Below, in pieces: positions 28,187 to 44,435 of a DNA stretch of 64,000 nucleotides. The position numbers and the translations under genes are program-made. How positions within the stretch are numbered: the first letter of the stretch is position 1; each line of letters starts with the position of its first letter. The DNA is from Bdellovibrio sp. ZAP7 (GTDB lineage Bacteria > Bdellovibrionota > Bdellovibrionia > Bdellovibrionales > Bdellovibrionaceae): NCBI RefSeq assembly GCF_006874645.1, contig NZ_CP030082.1, positions 3,286,001 to 3,350,000 on the forward strand, read 5' to 3'. Below the pieces are notes generated by a model. That model was not told where the DNA came from. It did not search any database and saw nothing but the letters and a program-made list of their open reading frames with translations.

Positions 28187-29629
28187 CTAGAAGTACTTCT
28201 TCCTTTGCGAAGAAGGAAGGATCTTCAAAACGTCGCGGTATTTTGCAACCGTTCTTCTGGCGATTTGGATTCCGTCGACCTTTAACATATCCACGATCTT
28301 TTGGTCCGAAAGCGGATTCTTAGGATCTTCTTTGGAAACAAGGTCTTTGATTTTCACTTTGACTGATTCACTTGCCAATGAATCACCGTCGCTTGAGCTG
28401 ATCCCTGAATTGAAGAAGTATTTCAACTCATAGATACCTTGCGGCGTGTGAACGTATTTGGCTGTCGTTACACGGCTGACCGTTGATTCATGCATTCCGA
28501 TGTCGTTCGCGATATCGCGTAAAACCATCGGTTTCAAATGCTCTGAACCTTTTTCAAAGAACTCGCGTTGATGTTTTACGATCGACTCGGCCACTTTGTA
28601 GATAGTTCTTTGTCTTTGGTGAATGGACTTAATCAACCAAACAGCAGAGCGCAATTTTTCCTGGATATAATCCTGAGTTTTATCGCCTGTTGTTTTGCCG
28701 GTTTTCAGCATATTTTTATAGAAGTTTGAAATCTTCAAACGCGGCAAACCGTCTTCATTCAAAGACACGACGTAATCATCGCCGACTTTGTAAACATAAA
28801 CGTCTGGAGTGACGTAATGCGTGTCACTGGCCATAAAAGCGCGACCTGGCTTAGGATCCATCGCATAGATGATCTTACACATGTCGACAACGTCTTCGAT
28901 ATCACGCCCCAAAGCTTTAGCAATGGCTTCGTAATTTTTCTTTTCAAGATCTTTTAAGTGATTATTGATGAGGTTGACCAAATCGTGGGTGTCTTCTTCC
29001 AAGTGTTTGGCTTGGATCAATAGACACTCTTTCAAATCACGAGCACCCACTCCTGGAGGATCGAATTCGTGAATCAGAGTCAGAGTGTCTTCCAAAAGAT
29101 CTTTTTCGATCTTTTCTTCTTCAGCGATTTGTTCAATTGGAACTTTGAAGTAACCATCATCATCGATCGCGCCGATGATCGCATCCGCTGCGCGCTCTTC
29201 TTCTTCAGAAAAGCCATTCATCTTAACTTGCCAGTAAAGGTGATCGTGCAAAGTTTGAGACGCCGTGATGACATTTTCATAATTCATGATCTCTTCAGAA
29301 CCCGACATACCGGACTGAGGAGGTTTTTGATTTTGTTCAATGTAAGATTCCCACTCGAACTCATCTTGTTTTTGTGGGTCTTGAGAGATCTGATCGTTTG
29401 TAGACTCTACAGAGCCTTCGCCAGCAACTTCGTCGGCTGCCTCTTTAGTGCGTTGGAGATCTTCTTCTTTAAGCTGTTCTGCTTCTTCTAGAATTGGATT
29501 TTCTTCTAGCTCTGAACGAACCGCTGACTCCAGTTCCATACGCGACATCTGCAACAATTTGATAGCTTGTTGCAGTTGTGGAGTAATGACCAGAGATTGA
29601 CTCAGGTTCATGGTCTGTCGAAGAGCCAT
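28187..29629 (-). CDS. rpoN: RNA polymerase sigma-54 factor
   Basis: RpoN directs transcription from -24/-12 promoters with AAA+ activators. Region I is the Gln/Leu-rich LSQSLVITPQLQQAIKLLQMSRMEL, followed by an acidic region II (about 45-110) and the core-binding domain. The helix-turn-helix and the C-terminal RpoN box ARRTVAKYR bind the promoter. 480 aa is normal. It follows lptB by 28 bp, the classical lptB-rpoN order. An activator with FHA, AAA+ and Fis domains is encoded at 48.7 kb. Confidence 0.98.
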   Translation of the reverse strand: MALRQTMNLSQSLVITPQLQQAIKLLQMSRMELESAVRSELEENPILEEAEQLKEEDLQRTKEAADEVAGEGSVESTNDQISQDPQKQDEFEWESYIEQNQKPPQSGMSGSEEIMNYENVITASQTLHDHLYWQVKMNGFSEEEERAADAIIGAIDDDGYFKVPIEQIAEEEKIEKDLLEDTLTLIHEFDPPGVGARDLKECLLIQAKHLEEDTHDLVNLINNHLKDLEKKNYEAIAKALGRDIEDVVDMCKIIYAMDPKPGRAFMASDTHYVTPDVYVYKVGDDYVVSLNEDGLPRLKISNFYKNMLKTGKTTGDKTQDYIQEKLRSAVWLIKSIHQRQRTIYKVAESIVKHQREFFEKGSEHLKPMVLRDIANDIGMHESTVSRVTTAKYVHTPQGIYELKYFFNSGISSSDGDSLASESVKVKIKDLVSKEDPKNPLSDQKIVDMLKVDGIQIARRTVAKYRDVLKILPSSQRKKYF

Positions 29630-29657: not shown

Positions 29658-30380
29658 TTACAGCCTAAAATTTTCACCCAGATAGAATTTACGAGCCAAC
29701 TCAGAATTCGTGATTTCGTCAGCACTTCCGCTAACCTGAATCGCCCCGTCCTTCAGTATATAAGCATAATCGCAAATGCCCAAAGTCTCACGAACGTTAT
29801 GATCCGTAATGAGAACTCCTATACCTTTGGCCTTAAGTTCGCGGATGATATTCTGGATGTCGCCGACCGCAATCGGGTCGATCCCAGCGAAGGGTTCGTC
29901 CAGCAAAAGGAACTTGGGTTCACCCGCAAGTGCACGGGCAATTTCCACACGACGACGCTCACCGCCTGATAAAGCGTAACCATAGCTGTCGCGGATGTGA
30001 CCCACGCGAAGTTCTGAAATTAACAATTCCAGACGCTCAGCTCGTTGGGCCCCGCTGAAGCCATGCGCTTCTAAAGCCACGGTGATGTTCTCGGCTACCG
30101 TAAGTTTACGAAATATACTGGGTTCTTGAGCCAAATAGCTAAGTCCCACGCGAGCACGTCTATACATGGGCTCTTTGGTGATATCGTCCTCGTCCAAGTG
30201 GATGGTGCCTTTATCTGGCTGAACGATTCCTACCACCATATAAAATGAAGTGGTTTTACCCGCACCATTGGGACCTAAAAGACCCACGACTTGGCCGGAT
30301 TCGACGGAGAATGAAGCACCATCAACGACTTTACGCTTTTTGAAACTCTTGGAAATTTCTTTGATGGTCAGGATGCTCAT
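29658..30380 (-). CDS. lptB: LPS export ABC transporter ATP-binding protein LptB
   Basis: LptB powers extraction of lipopolysaccharide from the inner membrane by LptFG. The Walker A motif is [16 protein letters not shown], the signature [15 protein letters not shown], the Walker [14 protein letters not shown] and the H-loop TDHNVRE. The Q-loop YLAQEPSIF is the LptB form. 240 aa is typical. It overlaps the LptC-like gene by 4 bp and precedes rpoN. Confidence 0.96.
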
Positions 30381-31390
30381 TTATCTTTGTTCTCCATCTT
30401 GGCACGCACTCTTTCAACCTTAACCTTTTTTCCGCCTTCAAGAAAGATGATTTCCTCACCACTCAGCTCGTCATTGTTTTGAATGACCTTAGGTTTTCCT
30501 TTAAAGACATACTTATTGGCAAGAAGGTCCAGGTTGACCACATCCGCCGTCGCAAATTTATCTGCGTCACTGACTTTTACACCGCCAAGAACGCTGATGG
30601 AGCTTAATAGATTGGCGCCTTTATCATAAAGGAAACTTGCCTCGGGCCCCTCGAGGCGCATGCCATCATAGTTCATGCGTACAGAGCCCAGAAATCTTGC
30701 CAAATTACTCTTACCACTAAATTCGGCACCATCAGCAACCACTTCAAAGCGCTTGCCGTCATTCATTGGTTTGGTCGCGGTCACTTTTTCTTTAATCAAC
30801 ATTTTCGACTGATCCACCAGAACTTGCATCGAACGTCCCTTTAGGACCATTCCTGCGCCCGTTTTATCGCGGGGACCTTCCATGTAAACATCTTCAGGGC
30901 TTTCAATCAGTCTTTTCACTGCTGAATAAGAAATACCTGGCGTCTTGAAAACATAGCCGTTTTCAGAGCGAGTCACGACATTGCCTTTAATATTGAGGTC
31001 TTTCGAATTCGAATCGATCGTACCCTCGTCACCTGTCGCAGTAAATTCAACTTTTTCTTTGTTATAGAAAAATACGCGGACTTTCTTAAGTTTCCAGTTG
31101 CCGCTGCCCTGACTGCCTTCGGCAGACTCAGAGAATAATTCCCAGTCACGTTGGCCCTTTTGGCTTTCCACCAAATGAACACCGCCCATCTTTTGTTCAG
31201 CGGTGGACTGTTTCTCTTTAGGGTCTTTACCCTGTTCTTCGAGCTCTTTTTTTCTTTTTTCTTGGAGTTCTACGCGAGCTTGAACTTTGGCGTCGTCGTC
31301 ATGTTCAAGTTTTTTGGGGAAAACGATAAGAACCTCAACGAACAATAAAACGAGAAGTACTGCAAAGATGAGGTTCTTGAACTTAGCCAT
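30377..31390 (-). CDS. lptC: LPS export protein LptC with an LptA/OstA-like C-terminal part
   Basis: A single N-terminal membrane helix (about 6-24) and a charged coiled-coil linker (about 30-65) precede a LptC beta-jellyroll (about 70-190). A further OstA-like stretch (about 190-330) follows. At 337 aa it is much longer than E. coli LptC (191 aa), and no separate lptA is next to it. It probably forms the inner-membrane base and part of the periplasmic LPS bridge as one protein. It overlaps lptB by 4 bp and follows the gliding genes after an 18-bp gap. Confidence 0.85.
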
Positions 31391-31408
31391 GGACCGATTC
31401 TACCCAAA

Positions 31409-32008
31409 CTATTGGGTAGAAGTCGACTGGTTAGAGTTTTTGGTCACTGCGAAATTGATTTCTCCGGCACCTGCTTCCGTCACAGTGAACATAACCTTCT
31501 TCACTGTAAGGAAATCGATACCTTTATCGGCCTGAATAGTTACTTTGCTCCACGCATTAGCATCATCAGTTGTTTGACCTTTTGTTTGATCAACAGCATT
31601 TTTGATTTTGTTTTGCAGTTTTGCTTCGTAATCCGATTTGCTTTTTGCCAAAGCCAAAGTCAGCTGCTCTTTCAATTTAGGAATATTCCAATCATCCGGA
31701 CCGGCTGCCTGGATTTCCTCAAACGTAGCCACAGTGTCTTTATCAAGAACGATTTCTTTATTGGAGATCGTTACAACGTGGGCTGGCTTCAATTCTTTAA
31801 CACTGGATGCCTTTGGAAGAGTTACTTCTTTTGGCATGTACAGGATGTCCCCTGTCGTATTGTAGTTTTGAAGAAGGAAGATAACCAGAACCGTAAACAT
31901 GTCGACCATCGCTGTCAAAGACAGAACTGCCGTCACGCCACGTTTCCCTTTTTTCTTACTCAAAATATTATGGTAGCGATGTCTCTCGCCCGGTCTAAAG
32001 ATTGCCAT
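31409..32008 (-). CDS. ExbD/TolR-type protein of the gliding motor (second copy)
   Basis: The single transmembrane helix carries the conserved proton-binding Asp in AMVDMFTVLVIFLLQ (about residue 35). A periplasmic domain of about 140 residues follows, longer than usual, with a charged insertion (about 95-140). It is the distal member of the TolQ-TolR-TolR set and should form the proton-driven stator with the two genes upstream (AglQ/AglS-like in Myxococcus nomenclature). The start shares one base with the stop of the preceding gene (TAATG). Confidence 0.87.
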   Translation of the reverse strand: MAIFRPGERHRYHNILSKKKGKRGVTAVLSLTAMVDMFTVLVIFLLQNYNTTGDILYMPKEVTLPKASSVKELKPAHVVTISNKEIVLDKDTVATFEEIQAAGPDDWNIPKLKEQLTLALAKSKSDYEAKLQNKIKNAVDQTKGQTTDDANAWSKVTIQADKGIDFLTVKKVMFTVTEAGAGEINFAVTKNSNQSTSTQ

Positions 32009-32484
32009 TATTGAGGCGCTCCTGTTGCGACTGAAATCGCGCTAAATCCCGAGATCAGGCAATTATCCATTGCCTTGATCAATTGGTCGTATGGCAATTC
32101 ATCTGCCATCGTCAGGATTGCATCCACTTTTTCTGGATAGATTTGTTTAACTCTTTGAAGTTGCGCAATGAGGCCAGCATCGTCAAATTGTCCGCCTTGC
32201 ATTGGAAGACTGATGACTTGTTTCCCAACAGTTAAAACATAACCAACAGGCTTCACATCCACCTTCAACACCACATCCGCATTCGGAGGAGGAGTCGGAC
32301 TTGGCTGAGTGTCGGATTTCTTACCGTACAAGGAACTTCCAATTTGAATCATAGAGATCTGAGTCCAAACGGCACTGATCAGGAGGAACGTAATAAGTAC
32401 GCTCATCAAGTCGATGACAGGAACGAGATTCAACTCGATATTCTTCGCCCTGCCGCCTTTGCCACTCTCTTCTATGTGAGCCAT
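32008..32484 (-). CDS. ExbD/TolR-type protein of the gliding motor (first copy)
   Basis: An N-terminal NIELNLVPVIDLMSVLITFLL shows the ExbD/TolR start and the conserved proton-binding Asp. A Pro-rich linker and a periplasmic domain of the TolR type follow. 158 aa is normal. It is expected to sit in a TolQ5:TolR2-like ring that converts proton flow into work. It lies 28 bp after the TolQ gene and is joined to the second ExbD by a one-base overlap. Confidence 0.9.
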   Translation of the reverse strand: MAHIEESGKGGRAKNIELNLVPVIDLMSVLITFLLISAVWTQISMIQIGSSLYGKKSDTQPSPTPPPNADVVLKVDVKPVGYVLTVGKQVISLPMQGGQFDDAGLIAQLQRVKQIYPEKVDAILTMADELPYDQLIKAMDNCLISGFSAISVATGAPQ

Positions 32485-32512
32485 GCTAAACCTCTAACTT
32501 TACCGTAAGTAA

Positions 32513-33229
32513 TTAATCTCTGATCTTTTCTCTGTTAGCTACAACCAGATTCAAAAGACTCATGCTTGTCTCAACAACTTCGTTCTCTGTTTTTTGGATA
32601 CGATGTTGGAACAAACCGTAAGCAACGATACAAACGATAGAAACCAAAAGACCAAACGCCGTACAATTCAAGGCATGCGAGATACCTTTTGAAAGTTCGA
32701 TAGATTTAGTCGCTGGATCCGCCACCGCAACCGCACGGAAGGAACCGATCATACCAATGATCGTACCAAGTAGACCCGCAAGTACCGCGATGTTACCGAA
32801 AACTGCAAGGAAGGAAACCCAACCTTCAACTTTTGGCATCTCTCTCATAACTGCTGCATCCATCGCCACTTGAATTTCTTCATCGGGGCGTTTGTTCATA
32901 GCTTGCACAAGACCGGCTTTAACAGTGTTCGTCAAAGCTGCCGGGCGAGCGTCGCAATAAGAAATAGCCTGGCGAAGATCACCTGCTACAACCATGCGGA
33001 AGATTTGATCTGTGAATTCTTTTTTATCCACGTTCAAATTTTTAAGTTTCATGATTCTGTCTACGATCACGATAATCGACATGATGGCGATCGCCGCGAT
33101 GATGTACATCACGATACCGCCCTCAGAGAATGCGCGTTGTAGGAAGTTCATATTGTCGCCTGCTGCAACCTGCATTGCTGCGTTAGTTGCTGACTGGGTT
33201 GCTGCTGCTGCTGCGTCTGTTGGGTTCAC
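32513..33229 (-). CDS. TolQ/ExbB/MotA-type proton channel of the gliding motor
   Basis: Three membrane helices and the MotA/TolQ/ExbB domain (AGLLGTIIGMIGSFRAV and the later helix ISHALNCTAFGLLVSIVCIVAYGLF) are clear. Family members with two ExbD partners next to a FHA-TonB-like protein are the AglR/AglX type of gliding motors. 238 aa is typical. It is preceded by the energy-transducer gene (49-bp gap), with no terminator between them. Confidence 0.93.
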   Translation of the reverse strand: MNPTDAAAAATQSATNAAMQVAAGDNMNFLQRAFSEGGIVMYIIAAIAIMSIIVIVDRIMKLKNLNVDKKEFTDQIFRMVVAGDLRQAISYCDARPAALTNTVKAGLVQAMNKRPDEEIQVAMDAAVMREMPKVEGWVSFLAVFGNIAVLAGLLGTIIGMIGSFRAVAVADPATKSIELSKGISHALNCTAFGLLVSIVCIVAYGLFQHRIQKTENEVVETSMSLLNLVVANREKIRD

Positions 33230-33278
33230 GAAATCTCCTCCTGTAGAGTAACTTTATTAATTTTTTAAACTTTAAATT

Positions 33279-35537
33279 CTATTGTTGGTTCAGAACGAAT
33301 GGGTAAGCTTCGATCACTGCCACGAGACCTGCTGGAGGTTCCGGGAATGTCCAACTTGCCAAACGATCTCTGATACAGTTTTCAACACCTTTATCTCCAA
33401 GTGTTGAACTCTTCACTTTCACATTACGCGCCTGACCTTGAGCCACGATTTCCCATCCCAGGATAACTTTACCCTCAAGACGAGTGCCTTTGGCTTTCGT
33501 GTTCAAAGCTCTTTCGTAACAGCTTTTCACTTCATGAAGTTTCGCACGGATCACACGACGAATAGCTTCTTTGTCAATAGTGCCATCGAAAGACTCTTCC
33601 ATACCGCCGCCTTCGATTGCCACTTGAGATTTCGAACCGAAACCCTCAGAAGCACCGTAAGCAGATTGGCCTGACCCACGACCTTTAGTTCCGATACCCG
33701 CGATACCTTGTGTCGCAGTCCCTTTACCACCCGCACCTGAGTCTTTGAATTTAGAACCTAGATCATCTCCGGCTCTGTTTTCATTGAAACCAGAAGTTCC
33801 TGTCGCTTTATCGGCCATACCCAAAACTTCACCCTGACCGGAATATGCCTGGTCAAGATTCTTTCTGTTACCACCGCCACCGAAGGCACCGAACAATCCG
33901 ACTTTAGAAAGGTCTTTGTTTTTCGACTGCGCGTTCGCACTGGCAGTCTCACCCATCTTAACTGCGCCACCTTGACGAGTTGATGTGAACGTCTTTCTCT
34001 TGTCTTTCGTTTCTTTAGGAGCCACTTCACTTGCTTTAGCCGCCGTGGAAGCCTTTTGAGAAAGCTGAGGTTTGTTCTCAGGCTTTTTCTCTTGAGCTGC
34101 TTTATCCTTATCGTTCACGACAACTTTCTTAGGAGTTGGTGTCGGAGTCGGCTGTTGTACCGGAGTAGGAGTTGGCTCTGGTGGTTTTGGCGTAGGTGCT
34201 GGTGGAGGCGTCGGTTTCTTATCAAAGATAACCTGCGCAATACGCTGCACGTCCTCCTGCTTATTTTCCTGCCAGTCTGGAGTTGTTGCAGAGATATACA
34301 ATGCAAGCAAGCCCACGATAACCAAAGACATCACCAAGCCCGTCAATTCAGAACCTGAAAGCATCACAGAAGTAATTGGTACAACTGGAGCTTGCGGAAC
34401 GAAACGAACGTACAAGTGAATGTTGCCACCTGGTAAAGCCAGGCAAAGCATTTCATTTTGATCAACACGAACCGAATAACCGCCACCCGCTCTTGAAGCG
34501 CGACCGTTTTTCTCAAGATCTTCGATACCCACCAAACCAGTGGAGCCTACCATTTCGATCTTCATGTCGGCAGCTGTGTTTACTTTCAGGCCGCCAGCCA
34601 TATCCAGGATCTGGAATCCTCTTGGCATGATCCCTTCTGGAAGAGCAATACTGTTTGGCTTGTCTTCACCCAGGTTCACATGAACGGATTGATTGCCTTT
34701 GAAATTGTACGTGTTCAGAATGCGTTCCTTCCAGGCAACGATCACTTGAACAGTCGGACCTTTTCCAGGCTTCAAATATGTTTTCAAATCTTGAATTTCA
34801 CTTGCCGGAGCGAAAGTCTTAACTTTCTTTTCCTTTTTAAATGAAACTTTTCCAGCACGAATCTCCGGACGAGTCGGGGCTACTGCTGTTGGCGTTGCCA
34901 TCGCAGGAGCTGCAGCGACCGGAGCTGCCGTTGCAACTGGTGCAGCAGCAACTGGAGGTGCTTTTTCATCGATCTTAGGAACTTCTGTTGGAATCGAAAC
35001 TTTCACTTCTTCTTTTTTATCTACTGCTGGAGGTGGCGGAGCAACTGGCTCTGCTTTTTGCACAACAGGTTCAGCAGGAGGAGGCATTGGCGCTGCCACC
35101 GCTGGAATCGAAGTCAAAGTTACTTCCTGAACCGGTGGTGGAGGCGCAACTGGTGCTGCGGCCGGTGGAGCCACTGGAGGCACAGCAACGGCTACATCTT
35201 CCAATTTTTCTTCACCCGGAGGAGGTCCTTTAGGTTTCGGCACACCCAGGAAAAACACGATTTTAAATGGACCGACAGTCACTTCATCGCCAGAAGCAAT
35301 GCTTTCATCAAGAACGGCCTGACCATTTTTGAATGTACCTGTTGAAGATCCCAAGTCGCAGATGTAATAGCCAGCGTCCCGTCTTTCTAAAAGACAGTGA
35401 ATTGGCGATACTCCATCACCATCAAGGTCGACGTGAACCTCTTCAGAGTGACCAATTACGATCTGATCTTGATCGAACTGCTTCACTCCAACAAGTTGGT
35501 TATCTTTAAAGATTCTGAATATTAACGGCGATCTCAA
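33279..35537 (-). CDS. gltG: FHA-TonB-like energy transducer of the gliding machine (GltG/PglI-like)
   Basis: The order is: FHA domain (about 5-95, with SPIHC and LGSSTGTFKNG, so it should read phosphothreonine), Pro/Ala-rich linker, a beta domain, one transmembrane helix (about 390-410), a Pro/Thr-rich rigid arm (TPPPAPTPKPPEPTPTP), a Gly-rich region, and a C-terminal AgmX/PglI-type domain (about 640-752, CYERAL to WTFPEPPAG). This is the layout of Myxococcus GltG/PglI, thought to bridge the inner-membrane motor and the outer-membrane complex. It overlaps the small upstream gene by 4 bp. FHA input suggests kinase control. Confidence 0.88.
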   Translation of the reverse strand: MRSPLIFRIFKDNQLVGVKQFDQDQIVIGHSEEVHVDLDGDGVSPIHCLLERRDAGYYICDLGSSTGTFKNGQAVLDESIASGDEVTVGPFKIVFFLGVPKPKGPPPGEEKLEDVAVAVPPVAPPAAAPVAPPPPVQEVTLTSIPAVAAPMPPPAEPVVQKAEPVAPPPPAVDKKEEVKVSIPTEVPKIDEKAPPVAAAPVATAAPVAAAPAMATPTAVAPTRPEIRAGKVSFKKEKKVKTFAPASEIQDLKTYLKPGKGPTVQVIVAWKERILNTYNFKGNQSVHVNLGEDKPNSIALPEGIMPRGFQILDMAGGLKVNTAADMKIEMVGSTGLVGIEDLEKNGRASRAGGGYSVRVDQNEMLCLALPGGNIHLYVRFVPQAPVVPITSVMLSGSELTGLVMSLVIVGLLALYISATTPDWQENKQEDVQRIAQVIFDKKPTPPPAPTPKPPEPTPTPVQQPTPTPTPKKVVVNDKDKAAQEKKPENKPQLSQKASTAAKASEVAPKETKDKRKTFTSTRQGGAVKMGETASANAQSKNKDLSKVGLFGAFGGGGNRKNLDQAYSGQGEVLGMADKATGTSGFNENRAGDDLGSKFKDSGAGGKGTATQGIAGIGTKGRGSGQSAYGASEGFGSKSQVAIEGGGMEESFDGTIDKEAIRRVIRAKLHEVKSCYERALNTKAKGTRLEGKVILGWEIVAQGQARNVKVKSSTLGDKGVENCIRDRLASWTFPEPPAGLVAVIEAYPFVLNQQ

Positions 35538-35806
35538 TTACTACCTCGAACTCGCTGGATGTCTTCTGCTGATTTTCTCATCTCAGGGATGAAATTCTCT
35601 CTAAGTTTGATCAATCGTTTATAATTGAAATTCTTCTTTTGGAAAAGGTACGACAACTCAGGCTTCTGAGTGCCGCCTTCAACCAATTCATCTTCGAAGT
35701 TAAGCGTTGCTTTACGCTCTTTTTTGGCAGCTTCTTGCGCATTTGCAAAACTACAAGCCAAGGAAATAAGTCCGAGCAATGATATGTATTTTAAAACTTG
35801 CAACAT
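35534..35806 (-). CDS. Small periplasmic protein in the gliding cluster (GltF-like by position)
   Basis: A signal peptide (MLQVLKYISLLGLISLACSFANA) precedes a 67-residue charged mature domain with a conserved-looking NFNYKRLIKLRENFIPEM. ATG at 35806 was chosen because GGGAG lies 7 nt upstream; the longer frame at 35830 lacks a site. It sits exactly where Myxococcus carries gltF, between the TPR lipoprotein and the FHA gene, and overlaps the latter by 4 bp. Function is inferred from order alone. Confidence 0.7.
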   Translation of the reverse strand: MLQVLKYISLLGLISLACSFANAQEAAKKERKATLNFEDELVEGGTQKPELSYLFQKKNFNYKRLIKLRENFIPEMRKSAEDIQRVRGSN

Positions 35807-35830
35807 GATGCTACTCCCTCGAGGATTCAC

Positions 35831-36688
35831 TTATTTTAAACCTGCTTTGGCCTTGTTTTCCAAAGCATTTATTCGATTACTCGACCCTGTCGGCCCACCT
35901 ACAAACTTTAGTCTGCTTATAACTTCGAGCCCGTCTTTATATTTTTCCATTTTATCGACCAGAAGAATAGCATAGTTCAGAATTGCTTCGCGGTTGTTGC
36001 TGTCGTCTTTGACGACTTTCTTGTATAGGTCGGCGGCTTTGTCGTAACTTCCCGTAGCAGTCAAAGCGACTGCATAATTGTTCAACACGCGCGGATCACG
36101 CACACCTTTGCTGTAAGCAACCTCAAGAGCCAACAGACCCTTCTTATAGTCCTTTTCCTGAACATAAATTGATCCCACGTTCGCGGATGCTACTGGATCA
36201 AGACCATTGACGGACAATGCTTTCTTGAAAGATTTAATTGCTTCACGTCTCTCATTTTGGGCCAATTGAACGACTCCAAGATTTGAATAAAGTTCGGACA
36301 TGTTTGCATTCGCCCCAATCGCCTTGCTTAAAAGGTAACGGGACAAATCAAAACGACCTTTTTTGAAGTGATACATCGCCAGTGCATTCAACGCTCTTGC
36401 ATCACTTCCATTTTGCGCCAGGATATCCGTCGCTGCACGATAGATACCTTCGTCATTCTGCGACTTAATAGCCGAATTAAGACTCGAGTATTGAGACGAC
36501 GCGACTGGAGCTGGCTTTACTTCCGGCTCATCGTGTTTCGCCCCCTTTGGCGCTTCTTCTTCGTGCACAGGAGTAGGAGCATCAGAAACGCCCTCCATCC
36601 CCATTGAATCTTCAGAACTTTGATTCGCTGTCGGAGCAGAAGAACAAGCAGCAATAAAAAGGACTGTTAACAATAGATACTTTTTCAT
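35831..36688 (-). CDS. TPR lipoprotein of the gliding cluster (GltE/AglT-like)
   Basis: The lipobox FIAAC at Cys15 marks an outer-membrane-directed lipoprotein. A Pro/Glu/Ala linker is followed by about five tetratricopeptide repeats (from about residue 70), ideal for protein-protein docking in the periplasm. The start overlaps the preceding stop (TAATG at 36688), giving 285 aa; the longer frame to 36703 is less likely. In Myxococcus the corresponding gene (gltE/aglT) is needed for focal-adhesion gliding. Confidence 0.82.
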   Translation of the reverse strand: MKKYLLLTVLFIAACSSAPTANQSSEDSMGMEGVSDAPTPVHEEEAPKGAKHDEPEVKPAPVASSQYSSLNSAIKSQNDEGIYRAATDILAQNGSDARALNALAMYHFKKGRFDLSRYLLSKAIGANANMSELYSNLGVVQLAQNERREAIKSFKKALSVNGLDPVASANVGSIYVQEKDYKKGLLALEVAYSKGVRDPRVLNNYAVALTATGSYDKAADLYKKVVKDDSNNREAILNYAILLVDKMEKYKDGLEVISRLKFVGGPTGSSNRINALENKAKAGLK

Positions 36689-39600
36689 TATTGACCCATC
36701 CAATTCACCAGACGAAGTTCAGAACCAACTTCACCACCGTTATAGTAGTTCACTGGATCCACTTTGCTCATATAATCCAAAGCCGCACGGTAGGCTTCGT
36801 TGTAGGCTTCAAGCTCCCAAGCGCGATCCACACAGGCTTTATAGCTGTCTTTGGCTTTGCCGTTAAACGGAGCCGCGAACTGTTCAACTCCCGCTTTGTA
36901 CTGTTTTGTCTCTTCCGCGTTCAGACCTGCTGGAAGTGGGGCATTGATAATCGTTTGCGCCATGTTGGAATTCGCATCACCCAACAACGCCAGAGAACTT
37001 ACAACTTCTTCAGCACTGTCGTACTTGATCACGTCGACCAATTCGCCAGAAAGCTTCGTCAACAAGCCGATTTTTTTATCAGCCGCTGCTTTTTGTCTTG
37101 CCGGATTGTTCGGGAATGTAACTGCGCGCATTTCTTTGAAAGTCATCAAAGCATCCGCAAATTTCAACTTAGCTGCGTAAGAAGCGCCTGGGCCTTTTTT
37201 GTTTGGCGCAAATCTTCTTTGAATCGCCAATGTTTTGCCGGCCCATTCTTTGGAGCGAGTGATAGCCCCCACTTCTTTGGACAATTCGTAAACCCAGTAA
37301 GCACTCTCCACGACTTTTTCCTGATCACGACCACCCGTTTCTACGTATTCCATGTAGTTACGGATTGCCGCACCTTTTTGATCTGCCTTACGGTGGATCG
37401 TCGCGATGCTATAAAGAACTTCCACGTTCTCGCTGCGTTTCTTGTTCATTTTAGTAAACTCTGTGTAAGCACGAATCGCTTCATCCCCACGTCCAAGAGC
37501 TTCATAAAGAACCGCGGCATTAAACATCAAGTTCGGAGAAAGAGGATCTTTTGGAGCTTCCTGTGCAAGTTGCTTGTACAGTCTTGCTGCTTCCTCAAAC
37601 TGAGCGGAATCTTGATATTGTTTTGCCAGGAATCGACGAACCTTAGGTCTCAACTTTTCAGCTTCTGGATCTTTTGAAGCCAATACACCTTTATAAGCCG
37701 CGATTGCCAAGCCATTTTGACCGGCGCGCTCATAGTTGATACCTGCATTGTACATCGCTGTCGTCGCCAAGTTGGAAGTCGGATTTGCCTTCGCGAAAGC
37801 CTCGTAAGCTTGAGCGGATTCAGCAAAGCGCTTTTGACCTTCTAGATCCTGACCTTTTTTGAACGAAGCCTTTTCCATGATTCCACGGATGTCTTTACCC
37901 ACTGGAGACGCTGCGATTGAAGGTACAGATAACATCTCTGCTCCGACTTTCTCTAGCCCCGCATAGTCTTTCTTCAAGTTGTAAATATCCAGGATCAAGT
38001 TCGCCGAGTACTCAGAGTACTTGGATTTAGGATTGTTCTTAACGATATCGCGGAACACCTTTACAGCTTCATCGAAATGATTCGATTGGTAATACAAACG
38101 ACCGATACGGAATTTAATTTCCGGAGTTTTTTCAGACTGCGGGAATTTACCAACGTACCAAGTTCCGGCTTTGATAAAGCGATCCACTTTTGGATCCAAT
38201 GGGATCGGATCCAAAGAGTTCCCAACACGTTTTTGCATCTCTGCATCTGTCGGAATCGTTTTCTCAACTGCTAAGATCAAGTTCTGTGCCGCTTTAGGAT
38301 AGAACTTGCTTGTCGGAGCTTTCTCAGCAACCCATTGGTATTGCACGAAAGCTTCGTCGTAACGTTGCATATCGTATAGCAACTCCCCGTAGTAGAAGTG
38401 CATATCGCCAATAACCGGAGAATCACCAAATTCACTCAAATAAAGCTTATAACCTTCGTTGGCTTGCGTTTGAGAGAATTGCGCACGAGAGTTTTGAGCT
38501 GTCTGATGCTGTTGCAAGATATAGTTACGCAAAGTTGTTTCGCGCAATTTATAAGAGCTATCCATCAGTTCTTTATTCTTATTATTAGCTGCGTACCAAT
38601 CGCTGCCTTTACCGTAGTCTTTTACCCAGCCATATAGTTCGTCTTTAAAGCGAGATGTATTCTTCGCATAAAAGAAGTTCTGTACGATTTGGTACTGGAA
38701 CTCGAAAGATTTAGGCGATGTCGGGTTGCGTGCGATCAACAGTTTAAAGATCTCACGAGACGCATCTTTATTACCGCGAGCTTGATACTGATAAGCCAGC
38801 TTCTCCAGATACTGATCGCTGCCTTGGCCAATCAAACCATCGAAATAGTTTGCCGCATTTGCAGGGTCACCACCCTCAGCATAGAATACAACCAAGTCAC
38901 GCATTGCTTCGCCTTCTAGACGAGTGCGGTTAACCGCTTTACCAGCAACTTGTTCTGCTTCTTCCTGACGGCTGCTTTTAATGATGTATTCAAGATATGC
39001 AAGACCTTGTTGGACTTTGCCCAAACGGAACAAACACCAACCGCCCTTGTACATCGCGAAAGTATGCAAACGGTGCTTTTTTTGCTTGATCAAGAATGTG
39101 TATTCTCTGTAAGCATCTGCCCATTTTTCATTTTCAAAGTAGTATTCACCCAAAGCGAAATGCGCTTCACCCACGTATGTGGAGTTCGGATAACGTTTTG
39201 TCAGGTCTTCGTAAAACTGAGCACCTTTTTTTACGTCGCCCAATTCGAAATAGTTATAACCCAGGAAGAACAATGCCTGCGGCATTTTTTGATCTTTAGG
39301 GAAGTCACGTTGGAACCATTCATACAATTGAACAGCTTTACGATTGTAATCGCGGGCTTCTTCCAGTTCCAAAACCGGTTTACGGTTGGTTTTCTTTTCC
39401 TGAAAGGCGCGAAGTTTCGCATCGTACTCATCTTGCTTGCGGGAGTCTACGATACTGGATTTTTCAACATACAACTCTGCCAAACGCAGCCACAATTCAC
39501 CGCGGTTCGGGCTGGTTTTGAATCTTTGGGTCAGCTTATAAAGCTCTTGAATCTGTTGGTCCAAAAGTTTTTCGTACTGAGCTTTTTGGTCTCCGCTTTT

Positions 39601-39912
39601 TGCGCGGGATTGCATGATCTCAGAAGAACGAGGCGGTTTTACGGCAGAAAGATTAACTTGATTGCCCTGAGTTGCGAAACCCATGTTGGCAGTCGGAAGT
39701 GCCGTGGAATCTTTCTTAACCTTGGCATTTTCACGGTCAGCTTGAGCTAACAACTCACCGACAGTTCTTGCACGAGAAGGCGCGGCTGCCGGAGCGGCCG
39801 CAGGTTTCGCTTTTCCCTTTTTCGGAGGAGCTGCATACACTGGCGCTACGGAGCCTGTAACCAGTGTCGTAACTAAACTTGTAACAAGAAGCTTGTGCCT
39901 ATTAAATTTCAT
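36688..39912 (-). CDS. Large periplasmic TPR protein of the gliding cluster (GltD/AgmU-like)
   Basis: A signal peptide (ending PVYA) and a Lys/Ala/Pro-rich linker are followed by more than a dozen tetratricopeptide-type helix pairs over about 1000 residues. The A/G/Y spacing of TPRs is clear in FFLGYNYFELGDVKKGAQFYEDL and similar segments. The length (1074 aa) and position match the AgmU/GltD protein that decorates helical tracks in Myxococcus. ATG at 39912 was chosen from AGGA upstream; TTG at 39927 is an alternative. It shares its first bases with the end of the TPR gene upstream. Confidence 0.85.
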   Translation of the reverse strand: MKFNRHKLLVTSLVTTLVTGSVAPVYAAPPKKGKAKPAAAPAAAPSRARTVGELLAQADRENAKVKKDSTALPTANMGFATQGNQVNLSAVKPPRSSEIMQSRAKSGDQKAQYEKLLDQQIQELYKLTQRFKTSPNRGELWLRLAELYVEKSSIVDSRKQDEYDAKLRAFQEKKTNRKPVLELEEARDYNRKAVQLYEWFQRDFPKDQKMPQALFFLGYNYFELGDVKKGAQFYEDLTKRYPNSTYVGEAHFALGEYYFENEKWADAYREYTFLIKQKKHRLHTFAMYKGGWCLFRLGKVQQGLAYLEYIIKSSRQEEAEQVAGKAVNRTRLEGEAMRDLVVFYAEGGDPANAANYFDGLIGQGSDQYLEKLAYQYQARGNKDASREIFKLLIARNPTSPKSFEFQYQIVQNFFYAKNTSRFKDELYGWVKDYGKGSDWYAANNKNKELMDSSYKLRETTLRNYILQQHQTAQNSRAQFSQTQANEGYKLYLSEFGDSPVIGDMHFYYGELLYDMQRYDEAFVQYQWVAEKAPTSKFYPKAAQNLILAVEKTIPTDAEMQKRVGNSLDPIPLDPKVDRFIKAGTWYVGKFPQSEKTPEIKFRIGRLYYQSNHFDEAVKVFRDIVKNNPKSKYSEYSANLILDIYNLKKDYAGLEKVGAEMLSVPSIAASPVGKDIRGIMEKASFKKGQDLEGQKRFAESAQAYEAFAKANPTSNLATTAMYNAGINYERAGQNGLAIAAYKGVLASKDPEAEKLRPKVRRFLAKQYQDSAQFEEAARLYKQLAQEAPKDPLSPNLMFNAAVLYEALGRGDEAIRAYTEFTKMNKKRSENVEVLYSIATIHRKADQKGAAIRNYMEYVETGGRDQEKVVESAYWVYELSKEVGAITRSKEWAGKTLAIQRRFAPNKKGPGASYAAKLKFADALMTFKEMRAVTFPNNPARQKAAADKKIGLLTKLSGELVDVIKYDSAEEVVSSLALLGDANSNMAQTIINAPLPAGLNAEETKQYKAGVEQFAAPFNGKAKDSYKACVDRAWELEAYNEAYRAALDYMSKVDPVNYYNGGEVGSELRLVNWMGQ

Positions 39913-39917
39913 AGTTC

Positions 39918-41495
39918 CTACTCGCAACTTTGTTTGCCCAGATAGTGATAGTTTCCGATTTCATCCAACCAGAACTCACCCTGGAACGGATAGTATTGGA
40001 AGCCATTTTCGATATAGAACTTACGATTCACATTATCGTCAATTTGCTCGCCAAGATCTTTACCAGCGATTTTCTTTTTAACAGTTTCTTTTCTTCCGTT
40101 GATCATTTCGTAACGGATGAAACCAGCTTGTTCGTAAAGATCATGAAGCTCTGTGCGCATGTTCAACAAATGCACTTTCATCATGTCGCCGATTGCAAGC
40201 TTGGTATTTTTCGAACGATTTGCCAGGATCTTCAAAGAGTACTGACCCAAAGCAGACGCACGGAACGTAGGGCTCCCCTCGACGCGGGATTTTTCCTGGT
40301 TCAAACGAGCCAGATAGTTCATCGCACGCTTCACGTCACCCTGATCCATGATGTTACGAAGAACGATGTATGGAAGGTGAAGATTCGCAGACTTATCAGT
40401 GGTCTTGATGATTTTTGCTTTCTCAAGTTCCTGATAGTAATAAGTGTTGTCGTTCGTGCTCTTAATGAAGTTACCGATTTTCGCACGTACCGGTCCATAT
40501 GTCGTCTCGAACAAGTTCAAGACCTTTTCCATCTCATCGTACTTACAGATGTAAAGGTATACGATCGAGCGTAAAAGTAAACTCTCCGGCATATAAAAGT
40601 CTTCATAATATGCCGAGTGGAGAGTTTGGAAATTACTCATAGCGGAACGAAAACGGGCTGCACGAAGCATTGCCCAAGACTGTTCAAAGATTGCATCATG
40701 CCATGCCAAAGTGTCACGAGGGACCTGAGAATACGCTTCGATAGCTGCATCCCAGTCTTTCTTTTGATAGTAAGCACGGGCCAAAGCCAATTGCGCCTGA
40801 ACTTTATTCGTATCTGTCACCGGAGCCGCCGCACGCGCATCAATCATATTTTGGAAAACAGTGATGGCTGCTGGCACTTCATTTGATTCAAGTTCTGACA
40901 AACCACGATTGTATAATGCCTGGAAGTAGTAAGAGCTGTTTGCTCCCACGCGACTGAACATATCGATCGCTTTAGGATACTCTCTGTTACGACGTTGGAT
41001 TTCTCCTAAGCGGTAGTAAACCATGTCTTTTTGACTTGCCGGGATGGAGTTCAAATCCACACGAGAGATCGCGTAGTTCATAATCGTATCGTCGCCCAAT
41101 CCATCGGCCACGATCGCAAGTTTTTCAATTGCAGGCTTAGAATAGCGAGGATTTCCAGAACGAATTACATCCACGAATTGGAAAGCGGCAGTTTGATAAA
41201 GCTTCAACTGCATCAACATTGTTCCCAGGATGTATTTGATCTGTGGACGCTCCGCTGCCAACTCCGGCTTTCTTGCCAAAGTGAACAGGTTATTCGCTGC
41301 TGCTGCATACTGACCGTTTTGGGCCATTTGCAAAGCTTTAGACAATTGCTGTTTTGCGTTCGGTGGTGCCACTGCTCTACGTTGCGTTGGAGCTTGAGCC
41401 GCACGTTTCGCAGGAGCAGCTTTTTTCGTCTGCGCCTCTGATACGACCGGCGTAACCATACTTGTTGCGATCAAGAGTAATAGTAGTTTTCTCAT
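39918..41495 (-). CDS. TPR protein of the gliding cluster (GltC-like by position)
   Basis: The signal peptide (ending VVSEAQ) is followed by a basic Ala-rich segment and at least six tetratricopeptide-like repeats. Examples are ALQMAQNGQYAAAANNLF and ALARAYYQKKDWDAAIEAY. 525 aa. It overlaps the outer-membrane protein gene upstream by 4 bp and abuts the large TPR gene, so the three are translationally coupled. In Myxococcus a TPR protein (GltC) is encoded next to the GltA/GltB barrels, and the same order is seen here. Confidence 0.82.
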   Translation of the reverse strand: MRKLLLLLIATSMVTPVVSEAQTKKAAPAKRAAQAPTQRRAVAPPNAKQQLSKALQMAQNGQYAAAANNLFTLARKPELAAERPQIKYILGTMLMQLKLYQTAAFQFVDVIRSGNPRYSKPAIEKLAIVADGLGDDTIMNYAISRVDLNSIPASQKDMVYYRLGEIQRRNREYPKAIDMFSRVGANSSYYFQALYNRGLSELESNEVPAAITVFQNMIDARAAAPVTDTNKVQAQLALARAYYQKKDWDAAIEAYSQVPRDTLAWHDAIFEQSWAMLRAARFRSAMSNFQTLHSAYYEDFYMPESLLLRSIVYLYICKYDEMEKVLNLFETTYGPVRAKIGNFIKSTNDNTYYYQELEKAKIIKTTDKSANLHLPYIVLRNIMDQGDVKRAMNYLARLNQEKSRVEGSPTFRASALGQYSLKILANRSKNTKLAIGDMMKVHLLNMRTELHDLYEQAGFIRYEMINGRKETVKKKIAGKDLGEQIDDNVNRKFYIENGFQYYPFQGEFWLDEIGNYHYLGKQSCE

Positions 41496-42331
41496 CGGTA
41501 TGTTGCCTCCGGAAAGAACCAGCTCACGCCTACAGTTAAGAACAAGTTGTTAAAGCTGTTATTAGATTTGTGGGATCCGATAACATTGCCGCTGCCATCT
41601 TTTTCTTTGATGGTCACGTTGGCATTATAGAAATTCCAGCTGAAGTCCCAACGGAATGCTACGGACTTCGTCAAAGAAAAGATCTGTCCGGCAGCCACGT
41701 GGACCGTTCCAGAACTTTCACCTGTGGATGTTTCAGTCATCCCGTAACCACCCGAGAAATACAGGTCGAAAGGAATGATACGGTTGTTGAACCAAGTCAT
41801 TTTACCGTAAATAGGCGACCACATAAGATCGGCACCGATATAGGATTTAGGATATGCCAAGCTCTCAGTCGAAACACCATTGTTCGATTCAAGTTCACGA
41901 GTCGATTCACGTTGTGCCGTCGTCAAACCAAAATAGTTCAACTCCACACCCCAAGATTCAGTCAGGAAGTACCCCGCCTTAAGAACACCACCCATTGTGT
42001 TAAAGAATGGGTCATTGGTTACGATGGTACCGCCACCAAACAATTCGAAGCGGCCTGTCTTAGGCATGAATCTTTTTTGAATGATCGAGATCTCTTGAAA
42101 TGGTGCAAGATTCGCAAGGCCTTTAAAGTCAGTGACATTCTTTTCATCATCACCAGCATAATTTTTCGCTGCTGCTGAATTTTCAATAGTCTGCCTTTTG
42201 GGAGCCGAGCGGTTTACTTCTGTTTCAATGCTGTCAACATCATCACCGCCACCCATATCCTGAGCTTTTGACAAACCCGGAGTCAGCATTGCGGAGATCA
42301 GTAAGAATGCGAAAAGTTTTTTGTTCAACAT
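41492..42331 (-). CDS. Outer-membrane beta-barrel protein of the gliding cluster (GltA/GltB-like)
   Basis: A signal peptide (ending LSKAQ) precedes an acidic stretch and a barrel of alternating amphipathic strands from about residue 85. It ends in Phe-Pro-Glu-Ala-Thr-Tyr-Arg rather than a terminal Phe. Strand patterns such as FELFGGGTIVTND and SWGVELNYFGLTTAQ are typical. 279 aa. It resembles the small barrels GltA and GltB of Myxococcus, which expose the gliding complex on the surface. Confidence 0.8.
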   Translation of the reverse strand: MLNKKLFAFLLISAMLTPGLSKAQDMGGGDDVDSIETEVNRSAPKRQTIENSAAAKNYAGDDEKNVTDFKGLANLAPFQEISIIQKRFMPKTGRFELFGGGTIVTNDPFFNTMGGVLKAGYFLTESWGVELNYFGLTTAQRESTRELESNNGVSTESLAYPKSYIGADLMWSPIYGKMTWFNNRIIPFDLYFSGGYGMTETSTGESSGTVHVAAGQIFSLTKSVAFRWDFSWNFYNANVTIKEKDGSGNVIGSHKSNNSFNNLFLTVGVSWFFPEATYR

Positions 42332-42344
42332 CTTTCAACCTCGC

Positions 42345-43070
42345 TTAAAACAAGTAAGACAAACCAACATCGAGGTTTGTAGTGTAAGTGAGTCTGTCTT
42401 CAAATGAATCTTTTGAAGGTTTTGTAGGGACGCTTGGTTTCAAAGCCGGATTGAATGGGATCGGCGCTTGATTCATATAAAGTCTCAAATCGAATCTCAA
42501 CGCCCACTGAGACGTGAAATAGAATTTTTGTCCCAGGCCGAGTGCCAACGCCGGATAAGCTTTGTTTTCAAACTTAACCATTCCCAAGGCAGCGGTTCCG
42601 AACAACTGGGTATTGATCACAGTCGCTTTGGTTAAACTCATCTTTCCATAGAAAACTTTAAGATTGTAATCCGCCATCAAAGTCATTTCCGGCTTTGGTG
42701 CGTAGTTATAGTCCAAGCCGTATTCCGTATATAGCTGCTTAGCATATGTAGATAAGCCCGATGAGTTTTTCGCGAACAAGAAACCAATGGCGTGGTCTTC
42801 ATTCCAGTTATAATACGCGGACAATCCGAATTTACTGACATCGTAAATCGGCTCTGTCAGCGCCATACCATAGAACAAGTTCGCATCAATGCGACCTGCG
42901 GTAACAACACGACGGTTTTTAACGCTCACCGATTTATCAAAGATCGGGAGTACAGATTCTTTCGCCAGTTCTTCTACTGGCAACTCGACCAACTCAGCTG
43001 CGAAAGCTGTTTTATGCAGAAGCAAAGCTGCACCAATGATGATCAAGGCTTTCAAACCATTCTTTAGCAT
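42345..43070 (-). CDS. Second outer-membrane beta-barrel protein of the gliding cluster
   Basis: A signal peptide (ending FAAE) is followed by a small barrel whose last strand ends YTTNLDVGLSYLF, a classical outer-membrane sorting end with terminal Phe. 241 aa. It lies 13 bp before the other barrel gene and 3 bp after kdsC, so it is within one long transcription unit. Like its neighbour it is GltA/GltB-like in size and place; which is which cannot be said. Confidence 0.8.
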   Translation of the reverse strand: MLKNGLKALIIIGAALLLHKTAFAAELVELPVEELAKESVLPIFDKSVSVKNRRVVTAGRIDANLFYGMALTEPIYDVSKFGLSAYYNWNEDHAIGFLFAKNSSGLSTYAKQLYTEYGLDYNYAPKPEMTLMADYNLKVFYGKMSLTKATVINTQLFGTAALGMVKFENKAYPALALGLGQKFYFTSQWALRFDLRLYMNQAPIPFNPALKPSVPTKPSKDSFEDRLTYTTNLDVGLSYLF

Positions 43071-43073
43071 GAA

Positions 43074-43577
43074 TTACCTACCTGAGGAAAAGGCCCCATA
43101 TTTATAAATGTAATCACAAACTTCACGTACTGCTCCGCAACCACCGGGCCGCTTCGTCACGTAATCTGCAATCTCAATCACTTCATCAACTGCTTCAGGA
43201 ACTGTGGCTCCGAAGGACACTGCTTGCAAAAGTGGGATATCGAAAATGTCGTCCCCCACATACGCCATCTCACTTGGTGAGATGCCGGATTCTTTTTGCA
43301 GCTGTAAGAAAGAAGGCTCTTTGTCGAGAGCACCTTCGTAAAAATAATGAATACCCAGAGATTTGGCACGAGCACGAACGTCCTCTGCCTTTGTTCCAGT
43401 AATGACGGCGATCTTGTAACCCGCTTCTGTCAAACGTTTGATGCCCACGCCATCACGGATGGAATAAAAACGACGCCATTCGCCGTTTTCAAACCAGATC
43501 CTTGTGTCGGTCATGACACCATCGACATCCAGCACCAACATCTTGATATTTTTAAGTTTTGATATTTCTACTGCCAC
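43074..43577 (-). CDS. kdsC: 3-deoxy-D-manno-octulosonate 8-phosphate phosphatase
   Basis: KdsC removes phosphate from KDO-8-P in LPS core synthesis. The HAD motif I is VLDVDGVMTD, motif II VITG, and motif III VGDDIFDIPLL. The C-terminal VTKRPGGCGAVREVCDYI is specific to KdsC. GTG at 43577 gives a natural 167-aa length. The frame extends to a TTG at 43631 with AAAGG just before it, so the start is uncertain. KDO genes kdsD and kdsB are nearby, giving most of the pathway within 5 kb. Confidence 0.9.
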   Translation of the reverse strand: MAVEISKLKNIKMLVLDVDGVMTDTRIWFENGEWRRFYSIRDGVGIKRLTEAGYKIAVITGTKAEDVRARAKSLGIHYFYEGALDKEPSFLQLQKESGISPSEMAYVGDDIFDIPLLQAVSFGATVPEAVDEVIEIADYVTKRPGGCGAVREVCDYIYKYGAFSSGR

Positions 43578-43684
43578 GAAATCATTGTGGGAAATTATTA
43601 CAAGAGGAGCAAGTGTCGCACCCCGATACAAGACCTTTGTCCCACTGGATGAAGGTCTGGAATGATCTCTTTACCGACAGAATT

Positions 43685-43781: not shown

Positions 43782-44435
43782 TTATTGCAAAGAATATTCG
43801 ATAGGAATTTCAAGTTTAGCGGATGATTGCTCAAACTCACTCGGCAGTGGTTTGTATTTACCAATGCCAGCAATCAAACTTTTAGCGGCTTCATTCAAAC
43901 GATCGAAAGCCGTACCCTGCTTGATTTCTACGGCAGTGATTGTGCCATCATTTTGCACCGTAAACTCAACTAAAACTCGTCCACTTTCACGAAGGCGTTT
44001 CGAAGTGACCGGATAGACCTTACGCCCTTCGATAAGAACTCGCAGTTCATATAAATAGCGTTCTTTAATGGAAGCCAAACGATTTCCATTGGCTTCACCC
44101 AGAGGTCCTGAAGTCAGATTTCCATCTGCATGACCCAAAGTTTTCGCTCCGCCAGTTTCAACAACCTTTGGCGGTTGAACTTGGACCTGTTTTTTCTTTT
44201 GAGTGACAGCGATATCGCCCTCATCGTGCAAAACGGGCGCCGAGATTCTTGGAACTGATTTAACGGGTGAAGAAAAGGAATCAAATTCGACGACAACAGC
44301 GCCACCCTTTTTATAGGATCCAAACGGCACTAGAACTTCAGGCTTCATTGCAACAATAGAAATCCCCGCAAACACCGCTAGGTGCAGGAAAAGGGAAATT
44401 GCAAATGGGGGTAATTCTCTAATTTTTAAGTTCAA
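43782..44435 (-). CDS. TonB-family energy-transducing protein
   Basis: One N-terminal membrane helix (about 10-30) is followed by a basic/Val-rich linker and a C-terminal TonB domain (about 130-217), with RVLVEFTVQNDGTITAVEIKQGTAFDRLNEAAKSLI. It should couple an inner-membrane proton motor to outer-membrane partners. The Pro/Lys arm is shorter than in TonB. No ExbBD genes are immediately next to it, but the gliding motor TolQR lies 10 kb away on the same strand. Confidence 0.88.
   Translation of the reverse strand: MNLKIRELPPFAISLFLHLAVFAGISIVAMKPEVLVPFGSYKKGGAVVVEFDSFSSPVKSVPRISAPVLHDEGDIAVTQKKKQVQVQPPKVVETGGAKTLGHADGNLTSGPLGEANGNRLASIKERYLYELRVLIEGRKVYPVTSKRLRESGRVLVEFTVQNDGTITAVEIKQGTAFDRLNEAAKSLIAGIGKYKPLPSEFEQSSAKLEIPIEYSLQ

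Follow-up and report, generated by a model that had tools for sequence, protein, structure and literature searches.

A probable Agl-Glt envelope motor cluster beside the lptCA-lptB-rpoN genes of Bdellovibrio sp. ZAP7

The Agl-Glt cluster type of Bdellovibrio is already known: it was described in 2010–2011 and has been tied to prey attachment through Bd0838, which encodes AglS. B. bacteriovorus HD100 has four tonB/agl operons, including Bd0828-0838 (PMC2797640); this operon was called the best gliding candidate in the account of Luciano (2011; PMC3169522). According to PMC6561027, the insertion strain Bd0838::tn lost attachment, killing, and prey rounding, and Bd0836 was among the putative binders of cyclic di-GMP (c-di-GMP) needed for predation. 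By count of tags, Bd0836 is AglR. Here, we analyzed 64,000 nucleotides of Bdellovibrio sp. ZAP7 (the window; C1:3286001–3350000 of a 4.12-Mb single-contig genome, NZ_CP030082.1), which carry ten glt/agl open reading frames (ORFs) at 31409–43070. This cluster is very probably a Bdellovibrionales-type Agl-Glt envelope motor orthologous to Bd0828-0838, in which kdsC and the ten Glt genes form the natural block and lptCA-lptB-rpoN is an old neighboring unit.

All ten ORFs lie on the minus strand, in the transcription order gltB-gltA-gltC-gltD-gltE-gltF-gltG-aglR-aglQ-aglS, with kdsC before them and lptCA-lptB-rpoN after them. Counted from the first possible start codon of each ORF, with overlaps as negative values, the gaps are 3 bp from kdsC to the first barrel gene, 13 bp between the two barrel genes, −4 bp to gltC, −10 bp to gltD, −16 bp to gltE, 0 bp to gltF, −4 bp to gltG, 49 bp to aglR, 28 bp to aglQ, −1 bp to aglS, 18 bp to lptCA, −4 bp to lptB, and 28 bp to rpoN. 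The original prediction, made from the sequence alone, had described 1–4-bp overlaps or short gaps; the short gaps hold, with 49 bp as the largest within the ten-ORF block, and the overlaps reach 16 bp. The contiguous set that it had listed (TolQ, two ExbD/TolR proteins, an FHA/AgmX-PglI protein, a small periplasmic protein, TPR proteins, and two barrels) was confirmed by ORFs and families, and an Agl-Glt core with GltA, GltB, and GltF in one block by lipopolysaccharide (LPS) genes was borne out. The ten-gene order is kept in L009–L015 as far as the contigs extend and across the order Bdellovibrionales, a recurrence that places the cluster beyond chance.

Families were assigned by Pfam and NCBIfam scans of the window proteins. 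AglR (32513–33229), a TolQ/MotA-type channel subunit, matched MotA_ExbB with 89.5 bits, and the TolR/ExbD-type proteins AglQ (32008–32484) and AglS (31409–32008) matched ExbD with 57 and 51 bits, respectively. GltG (33279–35537) matched both the GltG model (225 bits) and myxo_SS_tail (101 bits). The periplasmic TPR protein GltC (39918–41495) matched its model with 183 bits (E 9e-54) and had no solved structural relative at E 0.001. GltF (35534–35830), a small periplasmic protein of the CglF family with the size and place of GltF, scored 46 bits (E 3e-12). The two outer-membrane barrels matched OMP_myx_plus (cut-off 60) with 103 bits at the GltB position (42345–43070), assigned from its place in the gene order and its size relative to the M. 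xanthus table, and 128 bits at the GltA position (41492–42331). The model of the latter (m3e704f411444) has eight strands, a mean predicted local distance difference test (pLDDT) score per ten residues of at least 75 from residue 91 onward, and OmpW-/OmpA-like structural matches. The two barrels and GltF are thus present, the first barrel by family match, the second also by model, and GltF with a score below its cut-off. The large TPR protein at the GltD position (1079 amino acids, 36688–39927) gave zero matches to Glt models, matching TPR families only, and was assigned by position, size, and conserved neighborhood. The GltE-like TPR protein (290 amino acids, 35831–36703), a probable lipoprotein by eye, scored 33.5 bits against GltE, with higher scores for generic TPR models, and was likewise placed by position. 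The names GltD and GltE rest on place and size compared with the M. xanthus table (PMC3169522) and on a gltD-gltE fusion, encoding 1279 to 1299 amino acids, in five relatives (L041, L042, L043, L045, and L047). With these two assignments, all seven core genes of Luciano 2011 (aglR, aglQ, aglS, gltC, gltD, gltE, and gltG) are clustered.

The channel residues were conserved. T156 and T190 of AglR were invariant in 27 aligned rows and D36 of AglS in 26, paralogs included, and the window AglQ also has its membrane Asp, in the motif VIDLM. For these Thr and Asp residues, we assume the functional roles usually given to them. One AglQ of the Bd1473-1483 type (L024:14786–15343) is without the membrane Asp, and its partner AglS retains one. 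In the model of GltG (mbef41192064f), an FHA domain (residues 1–97) is followed by a Pro-rich linker (about 100–240), a second beta domain (about 250–380), a membrane helix (395–418), and a TonB-like tail (654–750); the mean pLDDT was 64, with the long linkers at low confidence. In the fold comparison, the FHA fold was clear, and only the FHA part appeared among the matches listed.

These features are consistent with a motor in which AglR and AglQ/AglS would form an inner-membrane proton channel, as TolQ/TolR homology and the kept residues suggest. The TonB-like tail of GltG may relay motion across the periplasm, in line with the two-hybrid contact between AglR and GltG reported for Myxococcus (PMC3169522), and GltC, GltD, GltE, and GltF would link this motion to the outer-membrane barrels GltA and GltB. 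The machine is predicted to serve, in all likelihood, in gliding on surfaces and in attachment to prey.

Several points weigh against this assignment. GltG, GltC, and CglF scored 225, 183, and 46 bits against curated NCBIfam cut-offs of 650, 450, and 90, and the labels GltD and GltE were given by position, without a specific family. The search against Glt and Agl families that had been proposed with the original prediction matched GltG, GltC, CglF, and the barrels, with the Glt scores under the cut-offs and none for GltD. In a microarray study, Bd0828-0838 was up in prey-independent growth but showed no rise 30 minutes into predation (PMC2797640), and the machinery for gliding in Bdellovibrio is described as unidentified in a review of 2026 (PMC13104615). 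Moreover, no interruption was detected between kdsC and rpoN in the window, which leaves room for co-transcription there.

The FHA domain had been taken in the original prediction to suggest kinase control. Compared with GarA, the window GltG has His for Arg and Thr for Asn, with Ser kept; we take Arg, Ser, and Asn to be the phosphothreonine contacts of FHA domains, and two of the three are therefore replaced. Among 25 GltG rows, the contact Arg occurred in 4 (L041, L042, L043, and L047), none of them from family f1, and the contact Asn in 3 (L013, L041, and L042). Although the fold is real, these replacements mean that kinase control through the GltG FHA domain, as judged from residues, is weakly supported in this genus.

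The window genome holds two further Glt-like clusters (L024 and L025) and the genome of the relative L032 three (L099–L101), and a MIDAS/CglD-like adhesin gene was found in each of these five, with no MIDAS match in the window cluster. In proteomic data, Bd2368-2377 was associated with exit and Bd0411-0421 with early bdelloplasts (PMC12546842), and a surface-induced gene is bd1480 (PMC9140294). These observations would fit a cluster that serves another envelope task, such as transporting a polymer or adhesin over the cell surface in the manner of the Nfs system of Myxococcus sporulation (PMC3858216), while a paralog cluster does the gliding. We consider this possible but rather unlikely. Bd0828-0838 was placed closest to the Myxococcus motor genes (PMC3169522), an aglS insertion blocks prey attachment (PMC6561027), and a GltE match together with two barrels occurred only in the window-type cluster among the clusters compared. 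The MIDAS gene is also not constant, being present in two of eight Bd1473-1483-type clusters of other families (L102–L109). The adhesin genes lie at L024:16707–17774 and L025:14136–15434 and also in L099–L101. The sole match of the window genome above the NF052240 (MIDAS/CglD-like) cut-off is at C1:3278951–3280090, about 37 kb from aglS and just outside the window.

The siting of the Agl-Glt motor cluster was then compared across the phylum. rpoN was sought in 87 genomes, and rpoN-flanking stretches were taken from 60 (19 in the order Bdellovibrionales and 41 outside it); 20 stretches around GYF-PilZ matches of an order-wide search were added, of which 18 came from families other than f1. L039 (3.4 kb) and L119 (3.2 kb), which are too short, and L122, which is without rpoN or lptCA, were excluded from the count. 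With up to 8.9 kb admitted between aglS and lptCA (L134), the Glt cluster lay beside lptCA in 32 of the 35 testable genomes of the order, namely the window, 9 of 10 of L029–L038 (family f1), 8 of 8 of L040–L047, and 14 of 16 of L120, L121, and L123–L136. The exceptions are L038, L130, and L136; the last stops about 5 kb past lptCA at a contig end, and a more distant Glt cluster is still possible there. None of the 41 out-of-order stretches, some of which end at contig ends (shortest, 7.1 kb), held a Glt cluster; L073 gave a lone weak GltG-profile match in one ORF (E 2e-7). L111, likewise from outside the order, has a Glt block whose GltG is 720 amino acids long; it is on a different contig from rpoN, and aglRQS were not seen in the stretch. 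A GltG scan of named genomes, which may have passed over the record of the window itself, gave seven loci, all in Bdellovibrio or Bdellovibrionaceae records.

Outside the order, kdsD or kdsC adjoins lptCA in 7 of the 41 stretches (L061, L062, L074, L076, L078, L079, and L080; in L074, one 96-amino-acid ORF separates them), an indication that the Glt block was added to a pre-existing kds-lpt neighborhood. The block was probably in place beside lptCA-lptB-rpoN already in the common ancestor of the order. Of the 41 stretches, none with a Glt cluster, 37 have lptB next to rpoN; the two genes are therefore an old pair, and rpoN, which had been counted as part of the unit, is an ordinary partner of lptB that says nothing on gliding. 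The repeated siting of the Glt cluster by lptCA in the order, often with a GYF-PilZ gene between, looks new: a limited literature search, judged by titles and no proof of novelty, found no link of gliding to lptB, rpoN, or kdsC.

The genes that flank the block, kdsC, lptCA, lptB, and rpoN, are all on the minus strand and were assigned as follows. kdsC (43074–43631; KdsC, 148 bits), encoding the 3-deoxy-D-manno-octulosonate 8-phosphate phosphatase, probably heads the operon in this family, and its true start, read by eye, is likely to be a GTG some 54 bp into the ORF. lptCA (30377–31390), coding for LptC (62 bits, cut-off 38) with an LptA-like C-terminal half (LptA 26 bits, cut-off 71.7), is probably a neighbor outside the gliding unit; many stretches from across the phylum contain an ORF of comparable length that matches its profile. 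It is followed by lptB (29658–30380; LPS_export_lptB, 362 bits) and rpoN (28187–29629; sigma-54, by family match). A TonB-like protein of 217 amino acids is encoded at 43782–44435 between kdsD and kdsC; as it was absent from that place in the relatives read, it was dropped as a cluster part.

The original prediction had joined the machine with LPS export and rpoN in one unit. The short aglS-lptCA gaps (18 bp in the window and L013, 23 bp in L033, and 22 bp in L034), the overlap of the two ORFs in L036 and L037, counted from first start codons, and the neighborhood shared by the 32 genomes are what a single co-expressed unit of kdsC, the Glt machine, lptCA-lptB, and rpoN, coupling motility to LPS supply, would lead one to expect. 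However, the aglS-lptCA junction was not uninterrupted across relatives. A terminator (GC stem and T run) occupies the 108-bp gap in L029, L031, and L032, and a similar hairpin was read by eye in the 115-bp gap of L010. An opposite-strand GYF-GYF-PilZ gene adjoins lptCA in most in-order stretches outside family f1, as detailed below, and kdsC was matched in only one of L040–L047. G086 holds kdsC (124 amino acids by ORF call) and all ten genes together (L118), with lptCA-lptB-rpoN at another locus (L038). Such a unit is therefore improbable, and as a rule for the order it is not supported. Because of the terminators, the split in G086, and the GYF-PilZ gene that other families hold at lptCA and that was not found there in family f1, the tight kdsC-to-rpoN run of the window, 18-bp gap included, is probably secondary. 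If L032 is B. bacteriovorus HD100, its terminator would make it less likely that the published insertion in aglS had a polar effect on lptCA.

In the 18-bp gap (31391–31408), a TAGAAT box stands 6 bp ahead of the ATG; if it is used, the lptCA transcript would be nearly leaderless. A promoter before lptCA is not claimed. Our own sigma-70 score was good there (median 7.8 in 17 sequences), and the same score peaked before gltF, with 9.7 in all 17, as a reflection of the conserved end of the gltE coding sequence; the lptCA scores thus prove nothing. A site scan of both strands gave 23 promoter-like sites, with 23.0 expected, and 29 terminator-like sites, with 18.9 expected, and was not used.

The GYF-GYF-PilZ gene stands on the opposite strand, head to head with lptCA, in 23 of the 26 in-order stretches outside family f1 (7 of 8 of L040–L047 and 16 of 18 of L119–L136; for example, L042:4822–5568), which span eight families. 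The exceptions are L045, L122, and L119, the last with one ORF between this gene and lptCA. Because L119–L136 were picked by a GYF-PilZ match, regardless of its position, this share applies to genomes with such a gene. It sits between aglS and lptCA wherever Glt is present there. In the family f1 stretches, no GYF-PilZ gene was found at this site; the copy of the window genome is near another Glt cluster (L025). Weak matches in L063, L067, L068, and L085, outside the order, do not adjoin lptCA. L130 and L136 keep the gene beside lptCA with no Glt in the stretch, and it may therefore belong with lptCA rather than Glt. Copies in L137 and L138 are without a Glt gene in the stretch. A GYF-PilZ-profile match was also found in or beside all 11 Bd1473-1483-type clusters examined (L024, L100, and L102–L110), which were fetched by GltG or motor matches; both domains were confirmed by Pfam in L024 only.

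A bold and rather unlikely reading is that the FHA-GltG machine, the GYF-GYF-PilZ gene, and lptCA-lptB-rpoN are an old three-part locus of the order Bdellovibrionales, from which the genus Bdellovibrio moved the gene. PilZ would sense c-di-GMP or cyclic GMP-AMP, and GYF would grip the proline-rich cytoplasmic linker of GltG, with the protein standing in for the cytoplasmic control part of the absent GltJ. Myxococcus GltJ carries a GYF domain. Per 40 residues, this linker contains 6 to 17 Pro in the 13 FHA-type GltG proteins and 1 to 5 in the nine paralog GltG examined; as the latter include the Bd1473-1483 type with its GYF-PilZ neighbor, this argues against a GYF grip in that type. By the PilZ motif definitions that we assume, RxxxR was present in 7 of 7 aligned rows and the usual D/N of the second motif, by eye, in 0 of 7, which makes ligand binding uncertain. 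Bd1482, a PilZ gene that lies at the 5′ end of a gliding operon, one of four, has been put forward as a candidate receiver for DgcA (Bd0367) (PMC3271064), and a limited search, no proof of novelty, found no literature linking PilZ, GYF, and gliding. If true, the three-part locus would offer a route by which the cyclase Bd0367 switches on Bdellovibrio gliding, and the move of the gene in the genus would make the window mimic one operon. The conserved site, the behavior of its edges, and the GYF-PilZ neighbor offer a few parts on which gliding of Bdellovibrio can be tested.

Among known systems, Bd0828-Bd0838 is the nearest: its eleven tags would fit kdsC and the ten Glt genes, with AglS as Bd0838. 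L032 has the same gene order and neighbors as the window, with the 108-bp gap and terminator in place of 18 bp. The Bd0412-0420, Bd1473-1483, and Bd2368-2377 types share the motor, GltC/D/F/G-like proteins, and a barrel with the window cluster. Their GltG is shorter (376–488 amino acids in L024, L025, and L099–L101), NCBIfam scans of L024 and L025 gave no FHA-family match, no GltE match was found, all five genus clusters examined have the MIDAS adhesin gene, and in the Bd1473-1483 type a GYF-PilZ gene lies within or next to the cluster. The M. xanthus glt/agl regions G1, G2, and M1 share AglRQS and GltA–G homologs, similar protein sizes, and a similar GltG domain layout with the window, where one locus replaces three. 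Unlike M. xanthus, the window genome yielded no full GltJ in a model search, with tail or linker matches only (maximum 33.7 bits, cut-off 450), and GltH, GltI, GltJ, and GltK are reported as absent from Bdellovibrio in PMC3169522; the machine, which had been called complete-looking, is thus not a complete counterpart. The Tol-Pal and ExbB-ExbD-TonB systems have in common with the window cluster the logic of a channel and a TonB-like tail. No Pal or TolB family match was obtained among its ten proteins in the Pfam and NCBIfam scans and, unlike those systems, it combines two TolR-type proteins with the Glt periplasmic proteins.

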